A stretch of DNA of 34,200 nt, taken from contig JAJXYT010000129.1 in NCBI GenBank assembly GCA_021780375.1, forward strand, positions 1-34,200, written 5' to 3'. This document shows, piece by piece, positions 11,363-18,775 of the stretch. The notes under the pieces are model-generated. The model did not search any database. It was not told the origin of the DNA and was given only the letters and a program-made list of their open reading frames with translations. Origin of the DNA: a bacterium (GTDB taxonomy: Bacteria > Verrucomicrobiota > Verrucomicrobiia > Limisphaerales > UBA11358). Positions within the stretch are counted from its first letter, which is position 1, and every line of letters starts with the position of its first letter. Position numbers and translations under genes: made by a program.

Positions 11363-11377
11363 GAGGGAAGCCTAGAA

Positions 11378-11469
11378 CGTCGAAAGTCCAGAGTCGAGAG
11401 TCGAGTGCCATAGAAAGAAACCTCGACCCTCGTCCCTCGACCCTCGTCCCTCGTCCCTCGTCCCTCGTC
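11378..11469. repeat. Heptamer inverted-repeat element (locus i)
   Basis: Left arm CGTCGAA AGTCCAG AGTCGAG AGTCGAG (11378-11405); right arm seven units CCTCG[A/T]C (11421-11469), reverse complement GTCGAGG/GACGAGG. Confidence 0.85.
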
Positions 11470-11479
11470 CCGCAACCTG

Positions 11480-12412: not shown

Positions 12413-13111
12413 TCAACGGTCATGTTGCTGCAACTCTTCGACAATGCGGCCGTCGGCGAGTTCAAAAACGCGGCGGGCGTGCGCCGCCACCTTGGCATCA
12501 TGCGTGGCAATAACCAGCGTGGTTTGTTTTTCCGCGTGCAACTTTTTGAGCAATTCGATGATTTCACCGCCCGTGTGCGAATCCAGATTGCCGGTGGGTT
12601 CATCCGCCAAGACCAGTTCCGGTTCGTTGATGAGGGCGCGGGCGATGGCGACGCGTTGCTGTTCGCCACCGGACAGTTCGAAGGGTTTGTGTTCCAGACG
12701 GTTGCTGAGACCGACGCGGGCGAGCAGTTCACGTCCACGCGCCGCGGCCCGGGCGGCCGGCACGCGGGCGACCCGCGCCGGCAGGCAGACGTTTTCCAGC
12801 GCGTCGAGTTCCGGCAGCAGATGGTACGCCTGAAAAACGAAACCGACCCGGCGGCTGCGGAAGTCGGTGAGTTCCCGTTCGGAAAACGCCGCGATGTTTT
12901 GTCCGGCAAAATGAATTTCGCCCCCGTTGGGCGAGTCCAATCCGCCGATCAAATGCAGCAGCGTGCTTTTGCCCGCGCCGGATGCGCCGCGCAATGCCAG
13001 GAATTCGCCCCGCGCCACCTGCAGATGGACGCCGCGCAGGACCTCGAGCGTGCGCCGGCCCATGGCATAGGATTTGGCGAGCGCGCGGACGGAGAGGAGC
13101 GGCTCGTTCAT
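12413..13111 (-). CDS. lolD: ABC transporter ATP-binding protein, LolD-like
   Basis: GASGAGKSTLLHLIGGLD (Walker A), LSGGEQQRVAIARALINEPELVLADEPTGNLD. ATG at 13111; adjacent to a LolC/E-like permease. Confidence 0.92.
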   Translation of the reverse strand: MNEPLLSVRALAKSYAMGRRTLEVLRGVHLQVARGEFLALRGASGAGKSTLLHLIGGLDSPNGGEIHFAGQNIAAFSERELTDFRSRRVGFVFQAYHLLPELDALENVCLPARVARVPAARAAARGRELLARVGLSNRLEHKPFELSGGEQQRVAIARALINEPELVLADEPTGNLDSHTGGEIIELLKKLHAEKQTTLVIATHDAKVAAHARRVFELADGRIVEELQQHDR

Positions 13112-13138
13112 GGCGGACCTCCGGCAGGAAAATGAAAA

Positions 13139-13232
13139 ACATTCAACATCCAACATTCAACATTCAAAGCCCAAGGAATCGCGCAACCGCCACCCACTGG
13201 ATGTTCGAGGTTGAATGTTGAATGGTGAATGT
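13139..13232. repeat. Heptamer inverted-repeat element (locus ii)
   Basis: Left arm ACATTCA ACATCCA ACATTCA ACATTCA (13139-13166); right arm TGGATGT TCGAGGT TGAATGT TGAATGG TGAATGT (13198-13232). Confidence 0.88.
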
Positions 13233-13240
13233 TCCCGAAT

Positions 13241-14518
13241 CTACTCATAGCGCAGCGCCTCCACGGGTTTCAGCCGGCCGGCGCGCCAAGCGGGCAGTAC
13301 GCCACCCAGAATGCAAATGATAAACGAACTACCGCAAATCAGCACGATGTCCCGGACATCAATGATCGCCGGCAATTCACTGAAACCGTAAATTTTGGCG
13401 GGGAAAAGCTCCCAGCCGGTCAACCGGTTCATGACATGCAGAAATTCATTGCGATAAGCCAACGCCAGGATGCCGAGTCCGTAGCCGGCGAGCACGCCGA
13501 GCACGCCGATGATGGCGCTTTGGGCGAGAAACACGCCGGAGATTTGGAGGTTGGTGGCGCCGAGCGCCTTCAACATGCCGATTTCGCGCGTCTTCTGGAC
13601 CACGAAGGTAATTTGCGCGCTGAGGATGCACAGCGCCGCCACGATGACGATGAAGAACAACAGATAAAACATCACATTTTTTTCAACGATCACCGCGCCG
13701 AGAATCGCGGAATTTTCCTGCATCCAGGTGGTGATGGTATAGCCGGGCCCCAGCACGCTCGCCAGTTGGCGGCTCACCGCGGGCGCCTGATAGGGATCGC
13801 GCAGCATGACCATCAGGCCATGCACACTGGCGCCGAGGTCGTAAAGCTCCTGCGCGTTTTCCAGCGAGGTGACGGCGATGGAATAGTTGTAATCATAATA
13901 ACCCACATCGAAAATGCCGGTGACGGTGTAATCATCCGGCAGGACGGCCTCTTCGTTCGATTTGCCCTGGTGTTCCTTCATTTTCTCCAACTCGTTCGGC
14001 GAATAAATCGCCACCCGGTCGCCCACGGCCAGATTCAGGCTTTGGGCCAGCGCGCTGCCGATGACCAGGCCGCGCCGGCTCAGGTCGAATTTCCCGGCGA
14101 TGATGCTTTTGGGCAACACGCTTACCGAACTTTCCAGAGCGGGATCCGCTCCTCGCAGATAAGGCACGGCGAAGTACGGCTGTTCATTAGTATCCGCCGG
14201 TTCGGTTTTCATGAGCACCGGGCCCAGGACATACGGCGCCACCCCGACCACATTCTGGTTGGACGCAACGAGGTTCATCACCGCGGCGTAATTTTCCATC
14301 GTTTCGCCGGTCGCCACGATCCGCAGGTGGGCGTTGAAACCGAGGATTTTCGAGCGCAAATCACGATCGAATCCGCTCATGACACTGATGACGATAATGA
14401 GCACGGCCACACCGAGCGCGACGCCGACGATGGAAATGAGCGTGATGATGGAGACGAACGTCCGTTTGGGCCGCAAATAACGCAGCGCGAGGAGCAATTC
14501 AAACGGCAGCCGAGACAT
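13241..14518 (-). CDS. ABC transporter permease, LolC/LolE family
   Basis: FELLLALRYLRPKRTFVSIITLISIVGVALGVAVLIIVISVMSGFDRDLRSKILGFNAHL; C-terminal FtsX-like region. Confidence 0.93.
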   Translation of the reverse strand: MSRLPFELLLALRYLRPKRTFVSIITLISIVGVALGVAVLIIVISVMSGFDRDLRSKILGFNAHLRIVATGETMENYAAVMNLVASNQNVVGVAPYVLGPVLMKTEPADTNEQPYFAVPYLRGADPALESSVSVLPKSIIAGKFDLSRRGLVIGSALAQSLNLAVGDRVAIYSPNELEKMKEHQGKSNEEAVLPDDYTVTGIFDVGYYDYNYSIAVTSLENAQELYDLGASVHGLMVMLRDPYQAPAVSRQLASVLGPGYTITTWMQENSAILGAVIVEKNVMFYLLFFIVIVAALCILSAQITFVVQKTREIGMLKALGATNLQISGVFLAQSAIIGVLGVLAGYGLGILALAYRNEFLHVMNRLTGWELFPAKIYGFSELPAIIDVRDIVLICGSSFIICILGGVLPAWRAGRLKPVEALRYE

Positions 14519-18699: not shown

Positions 18700-18775
18700 G
18701 TGACGGGTGACGCGTGACGAGTGGCGGGTGACGAGGTGAAATCCGCATCACGAGTCACCTGTCACCGGTCACGTT
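18700..18775. repeat. Heptamer inverted-repeat element (locus iii)
   Basis: Left arm GTGACGG GTGACGC GTGACGA GTGGCGG GTGACGA (18700-18734); right arm TCACGAG TCACCTG TCACCGG TCACGTT (18748-18775). Confidence 0.88.

Follow-up and report, generated by a model that had tools for sequence, protein, structure and literature searches.

What is the inverted array of 7-nt units that separates the lolC and lolD genes in this stretch of DNA, and how do the two genes live with it? We analyzed the whole stretch of 34,200 nucleotides (the window), which belongs to a 4.0-Mb draft genome of Limisphaerales (Verrucomicrobiota subdivision 3). Genes were called with a home-made caller, and the genomes used were drafts of uncultured organisms. 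The original prediction described a period-7 inverted repeat between a LolC/E permease and a LolD ATPase, with units kept in register even where they had diverged. The inverted array was confirmed at 13138–13233 (AACATTC...GAATGTT). TRF returned a period of 7 in both arms, and direct reading of the sequence showed that all units of both arms hold the 7-nt register. On the forward strand, the left arm (13138–13167) reads AACATTC AACATCC AACATTC AACATTC AA and the right arm (13198–13233) reads TGGATGT TCGAGGT TGAATGT TGAATGG TGAATGT T; the repeat search paired the arms over 24 nt at 92%. The gene identities were borne out by Pfam, the best NCBIfam matches falling below their cut-offs. Since lolC and lolD lie on the minus strand, the array is downstream of lolC, at a distance of 7 nt from its stop codon. 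The features of the junction are as follows.

13241–14518, minus strand: upstream gene, LolC/E-type permease (Pfam MacB_PCD and FtsX; best NCBIfam match TIGR02212, below cut-off).
13108–13248, minus strand: bridge ORF of 46 codons and a stop codon; it starts at an ATG inside TATGAGTAG that overlaps the lolC stop and ends at the TGA inside the lolD start ATGA.
13135–13236, minus strand: whole element, ~100-nt palindromic heptad type (covariance model R1, alignments A1 and A3).
13199–13233, minus strand: 5' arm, five heptads, in mRNA sense AACATTC ACCATTC AACATTC AACCTCG AACATCC (sequence, alignment A3).
13168–13198, minus strand: loop of ~31 nt, including a degenerate fifth 3' heptad (loop sequence varies between copies).
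13138–13167, minus strand: 3' arm, in mRNA sense TTGAATG TTGAATG TTGGATG TTGAATG TT (sequence, TRF, repeat search).
13118–13122, minus strand: GGAGG, Shine-Dalgarno-like, ahead of lolD; in the predicted fold it is not part of the long hairpin.
12413–13111, minus strand: downstream gene, LolD-type ATPase (Pfam ABC_tran; best NCBIfam match TIGR02211, below cut-off).

Is the array peculiar to this junction? A census of arrays was made over 685 kb of the genome, together with whole-genome pattern and model searches. Period 7 accounted for 54 arrays, while each of the other periods from 4 to 13 gave 0–9 at equal threshold, and period 14 appeared as a harmonic of period 7. With up to one mismatch, the 14-mer TTGAATGTTGAATG had 42 matches genome-wide and its reversed control none. 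A reverse-complement arm lay within 120 nt in 17 of the 42 strong arrays (controls: 0 for the reversed word, 1 for the same orientation). Several words build arrays in this genome, including AACATYS, AAATCRY, GTGACRN, GTCGAGR, and TTCAGCC. Across the phylum, the AAC word was present in 20 of the 145 genomes surveyed, representing 17 of 82 genera, and its controls stayed at zero except in one genome; AAATCRY was found in 29 of 40 relatives, with controls at zero.

The AAC type has a layout of five heptads, a loop of ~25 nt and five further heptads, ~100 nt altogether, with the grammar AACNYYS. Seven unlinked loci of the own genome (the window copy included) were aligned with six lolC–lolD sequences from other genomes, and all 13 matched end to end in this form. 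The covariance model built for it located ~20 distinct copies in the own genome and matched in 34 of 59 relatives and 11 of 24 genera; the window copy, which is in the training set, scored 89.6 bits (E = 1.4e-19) over model positions 1–102 of 102. Counts per genome were uneven: some relatives have many copies at the least, while others from the same genus have no match. G001, G010, G021, G030, and G031 are rich in elements, and G006, G008, G025, and G028 are free of them. Among 63 copies examined, nearly all measured 99–109 nt, the AAC/GTT positions were 97–100% conserved, the variable positions were mostly C/T or C/G, and the element ends were GGRAAC/GTTTCC. Over all arms of these copies, AACAACC made up 39 of 42 AACAA words, and AACATTG was rare (11, versus 114 AACATTC). 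With AACATTG, a TGA would arise in one of the frames of the sense 5' arm. The copies lay between co-directional genes in 59 of 63 cases, at a median of ~6 nt after the stop and ~11 nt before the start. In the two-armed copies of the own genome, the AAC arm always came first. A strand preference relative to transcription was tried and rejected: copies outside the training set often scored better on the non-coding strand, so the orientation of the element looks neutral. Judged by these matches, the lolC–lolD array is one copy of an abundant ~100-nt palindromic repeat of Limisphaerales and other Verrucomicrobiota from soil and water.

The strong preference for period 7 brings to mind ordinary heptameric simple sequence repeats, in which slippage would build the tandem arrays and template switching the inverted arm, and which would survive between genes as harmless there. 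Heptameric repeats are over-represented in many bacteria, mostly in intergenic regions, and slippage has been proposed for them (PMC4692102). A few long one-armed arrays, such as that of 14 units in L049, and the occurrence of different words at one junction in different species also agree with this origin. We consider it unlikely, however, because 5+5 units and a near-constant length recur in unlinked copies and across genera, the polarity is fixed with the AAC arm first, words are shared across the phylum, and there is a bias toward open frames (see below). The tandem 7-nt units of such repeats are present here, but the variable unit number is not, the 63 copies being mostly 99–109 nt with 5+5 units; one-armed arrays of other lengths exist beside them.

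Two further arrays in the window are built from other words.

11375–11471, minus strand: sister array of the word GTCGAGG/CCTCGAC, between rhomboid and purB; G001, G030, and G031 carry GTCGAGG/CCTCGAC at the rhomboid–purB gap.
18700–18772, minus strand: sister array of a third word, GTGAC/GTCAC, upstream of an rsuA-like gene; G022 has a GTGAC array at the corresponding place.

Upstream of purB, L184, L192, and L198 have arrays of 8-nt units (AACGATTT, AACATTTC) in place of the own 7-nt GTCGAG array, with an apparent inverted arm in L192 and L198. Downstream of lolD, L194, L196, and L198 (G028, G021, and G007) hold a different inverted repeat of ~60 nt, GACGTGAGGAGTCTC...GCCTCGT(C/T)ACCTCGGCTCCTAC, which is possibly another dispersed family. 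Several elements can occupy neighboring junctions ~1 kb apart (L252, L259, L260, L281), and successive gaps of an NADH-dehydrogenase-like operon are filled in G001; G021 has copies that appear to be orthologous.

Searched against Rfam 15, the array had no match up to E = 1, and only two sub-threshold chance miRNA matches turned up elsewhere; the plasmid BLAST returned only short marginal matches, and a search of the open literature found no report of heptad repeats in Verrucomicrobia. In IMG/VR, 95 stretches of viral-called contigs hold GTTSRATG triple heptads, some contigs repeatedly (e.g., L389, L390, L371). Viral carriers were considered and rejected: no recognizable phage protein occurred in the copies checked, and six proteins yielded one Pfam match, to a methyltransferase, so that the phage nature of these contigs is doubtful.

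What does the junction look like where the element is absent? Most relatives have an 8-nt overlap (TATGARTGA) of lolC with lolD, as against ~110–170 nt when the junction is filled. The expectation that orthologous gaps would share the period-7 structure was borne out at ten further lolC–lolD gaps: all ten contain heptads as an inverted array, built from the AAC word in nine and from a different one in the tenth. The AAC-type arrays at ten loci, the own included, have equal phase, and L052 uses the different word GATTYRY. On the lolC+lolD tree, the AAC insert requires at least seven gains or losses, at least five of them forced by well-supported branches, and there are filled and empty sister pairs (L081/L083 and L074/L163). 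So many changes, with exact empty sites, count against the reading favored below. In L099 and L109, from another verrucomicrobial lineage, the lolC–lolD gap is occupied by an inverted array whose units are 6 nt long (GATTAA/GATTAC...TTAATC); the unit length is therefore not always 7.

Other junctions behave in the same way. Among 30 genomes, exbB and exbD overlap by 4 nt (ATGA) or stand 1–4 nt apart in 21 and lie 30 nt apart in one, and the junction is filled in eight (96–134 nt), four with AACATYS words and four with other words. At gspE–pilC, the array is AAC-type or drifting in seven genomes; an eighth has one that is longer and mixed. Different heptad words can thus occupy one orthologous junction in different species. 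In a check for target duplication, the 8-nt ATGAATGA flanked both sides of the insert in L052, and degenerate ATGA copies were present at both ends elsewhere. These flanking copies sit 10–25 nt from the array end and would be needed for function anyway.

The filled junctions have a frame that crosses the element. It begins at an ATG at or just after the upstream stop, runs through the element for 32–60 codons, and usually ends on or beside the next start. At lolC–lolD, this bridge is open in all 11 filled orthologues (the own included); its stop is the TGA inside the lolD start overlap in nine of them and lies a few nt further in in two. At exbB–exbD, all seven ATGA-bounded inserts are open, although they comprise four kinds of word, and the stop falls −1 to +8 nt from exbD. 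For a wider test we used 59 junction copies with three frames each, sorting the frames by whether an ATG stood just upstream of the array. The frames with such an ATG were open in 42 of 48 cases, compared with 54 of 129 other frames (Fisher p = 2e-8), the copies being related and some orthologous so that these counts are not fully independent; antisense frames were open in 85 of 177. A frame-stratified test under equal conditioning gave a Mantel–Haenszel odds ratio of 6 (χ2 = 14.6). Within the own genome alone the effect had the same direction and was weak (χ2 = 2.5). With an independent detector, 51 of 55 ATG frames versus 59 of 131 others were open for the AAC type, and the effect was weaker for other word families (11 of 17 versus 21 of 61, p = 0.025). 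Of the 34 bridge ORFs that ended within view, 28 had an ATG in overlap or at most 5 nt away. A suitable ATG frame was absent in 12 of the 59 junction copies.

The 46-codon frame, open in all filled orthologues and with some peptide similarity (GNIEHSTFN..), could be read as a true gene for a small protein, placed between lolC and lolD. That similarity follows from the heptads, the bridge is absent from most related genomes, and the element is read in other frames at other loci, yielding unrelated peptides. A conserved peptide was rejected on this last ground, and we find a small-protein gene barely credible. Since the frame differs between copies, the constraint is on readability and not on a peptide. 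The encoded bridge peptide is probably not the point, and the element is probably kept readable so that translation can run from gene to gene across it.

Arrays within genes are also read through. Thirteen array clusters of the own-genome sample lay wholly within called genes, all without a stop; any array in a called gene is expected to be open, so this point rests on the genes being real. The host genes checked were recognizable, among them ArgS, PheT, RibD, and a YmdB-like protein. Examples are listed here.

L149:1602-3407: argS with an in-frame heptad array (codon ~502).
L150:5069-6301: ribD with an in-frame heptad array.
L150:13703-18208: one frame of 1501 aa, carrying domains of IMS (Y-family polymerase) and of DNA polymerase III alpha, with three different arrays.
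L043:11135-13756: pheT with an in-frame heptad array.
L131:8364-9989: class II tRNA synthetase with an in-frame heptad array.

The ArgS insert, GNIQHPTFNI, sits in a length-variable linker, where similar heptad-coded peptides occur in G024, G021, and G003 and nothing alike in G023 and G020. Most in-gene arrays are one-armed, whereas the junction bridge ORFs are two-armed.

Could the hairpin itself be what is selected? Every orthologous lolC–lolD array folds into a long hairpin (z = −1.3 to −6.6), and the junctions include those of complex subunits (LolCD, ExbBD). Both observations would suit a transcription terminator, an attenuator, or an mRNA-processing or stability site that sets the LolC:LolD ratio. 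The idea of termination, however, found no support: the terminator scan gave no site at the array, and the GC-rich stem followed by a U tract that marks an intrinsic terminator is missing, most right ends running GTTTCCC. Translation through the hairpin would, moreover, disrupt it. Arm-arm compensatory evolution was rejected, as chimeric duplexes (energy −37.7) were equivalent to cognate ones (−37.9, p = 0.52) and 31.6 of 38 positions paired for cognate arms against 31.4 for foreign ones, although RNAalifold found two-sided changes in 7 of 26 pairs. Foreign arms, from other species or loci, pair as well as cognate arms, which means that pairing is not finely selected; the folding potential stems from the shared word grammar. 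We saw no evidence of pair-by-pair selection: the arms are conserved, and not with each other. A hairpin with a dedicated role of this kind is improbable in our judgment, and an effect of the array on the LolC:LolD ratio is possible. As for the original prediction, its inverted repeat and gene identities stand and termination is unsupported; it had overlooked the dispersed family and the open frame that crosses the gap.

The restricted alphabets (Y, S), the near-invariant AAC, and the lack of arm-arm covariation suggest a unit-wise constraint. Each heptad of 7 nt might then bind one molecule of a nucleic-acid-binding protein. Cold-shock proteins are reported to bind in this way, one per heptamer, and CspB (discussed in PMC4679880) offers a precedent. 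Many unrelated words coexist in one genome, different words serve one junction in different species, and the idea comes without a candidate protein, all of which leave it only a slim chance.

At the level of sequence, this DNA folds back on itself, is retained at defined sites, and stays open in the frame set by the ATG at or just after the upstream stop. With moderate confidence, we favor a palindromic repeat family resembling the Rickettsia palindromic elements, tolerated at co-directional junctions because it relays translational coupling. Reporter experiments in E. coli and Haloferax showed that coupling is nearly abolished at gaps of about 20 nt (PMC10666635); on this basis, 100 nt of untranslated insert would be expected to break the coupling of genes that meet at ATGA. 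A junction without an element consists of an overlap (ATGA, TATGARTGA) or of a gap of very few nucleotides. Copies are found lodged there; they resemble MITEs in size and form and would have spread as non-autonomous elements. After terminating at the upstream stop, a ribosome would reinitiate at the bridge ATG, translate the 32–60-codon bridge through the hairpin, terminate at the second overlap, and reinitiate at the downstream gene. In this manner, the insert would relay the termination–reinitiation coupling that an untranslated 100-nt gap would abolish. In the own copy, independent initiation at lolD via the GGAGG is possible. Tentatively, and with clearly less confidence than in this relay, we also entertain an element class specialized for coupling junctions, with a bridge that is open between two overlapping start/stop signals in whichever frame the junction dictates, words made interchangeable by a word-copying mechanism, and wholesale gain or loss between sister species.

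If the bridge frames are translated, they amount to hundreds of natural experiments on operons that survive an insertion between translationally coupled genes, in which sister species offer filled sites and their exact empty counterparts where genes of essential complexes (LolCD, ExbBD) meet. They would also be a case outside Rickettsia of palindromic DNA kept in frame. The unit-wise grammar, which goes beyond base pairing, raises the question of why bacterial repeats favor a 7-nt unit. The elements and their bridge ORFs are probably missed by annotation pipelines.

Among known systems, the Rickettsia palindromic elements are dispersed palindromes of ~100–150 nt found in frame even inside housekeeping genes (review PMC10969869). 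The present family likewise places a palindromic repeat in frame, mostly one-armed in ArgS, RibD, PheT, and others, and two-armed in the junction bridges. Likened here by description, it differs in phylum, in its arms of 7-nt words, in its several word families, and in its preferred site, a stop/start junction with a bridge ORF overlapping at both ends. Like MITEs, ERIC, Correia, RUP, and QMITE, the elements are small inverted repeats in tens of copies, intercistronic, RNA-folding, and patchy among relatives; they are shorter than 500 bp, with terminal inverted repeats and multiple dispersed copies, as MITEs are. Unlike these, they have heptad arms, a position at start/stop overlaps, and a retained open frame; no clean target duplication was seen, and a transposase survey that covered Y1_Tnp (PF01797) brought up no parent IS. 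REP, BIME, and REPIN sequences with their RAYTs are also extragenic palindromes, and Y1 transposases occur in the own genus, but the GTAG/CGTC-tagged 20–40-nt REP structure is missing here. RAYT as a driver was rejected because the Y1_Tnp count does not follow the element count: G003 has elements with only a fragmentary Y1_Tnp match, and G006, G008, and G012 have many Y1_Tnp and no elements.

The heptamers of cyanobacteria (STRR), Xanthomonas and Nostoc (GGGAATC), and Beggiatoaceae (TAACTGA) share the 7-nt units, the imperfect copies, the intergenic location, and often a place between the same genes in related species; in Xanthomonas, some also form inverted pairs. They are chiefly direct arrays whose length varies and in which a single word dominates; the family described here has a fixed palindrome of 5+5 units, uses many words, and keeps a frame open across the junction. 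Exactly the ATGA/TGATG overlaps at which termination–reinitiation operates occur at the empty junctions and at both ends of the bridge ORF, except that here a third, inserted frame would carry the coupling. Palindromic repeats, heptads, and termination–reinitiation overlaps are each of a known kind and are combined in this family; what is new is the open bridge frame across the element.
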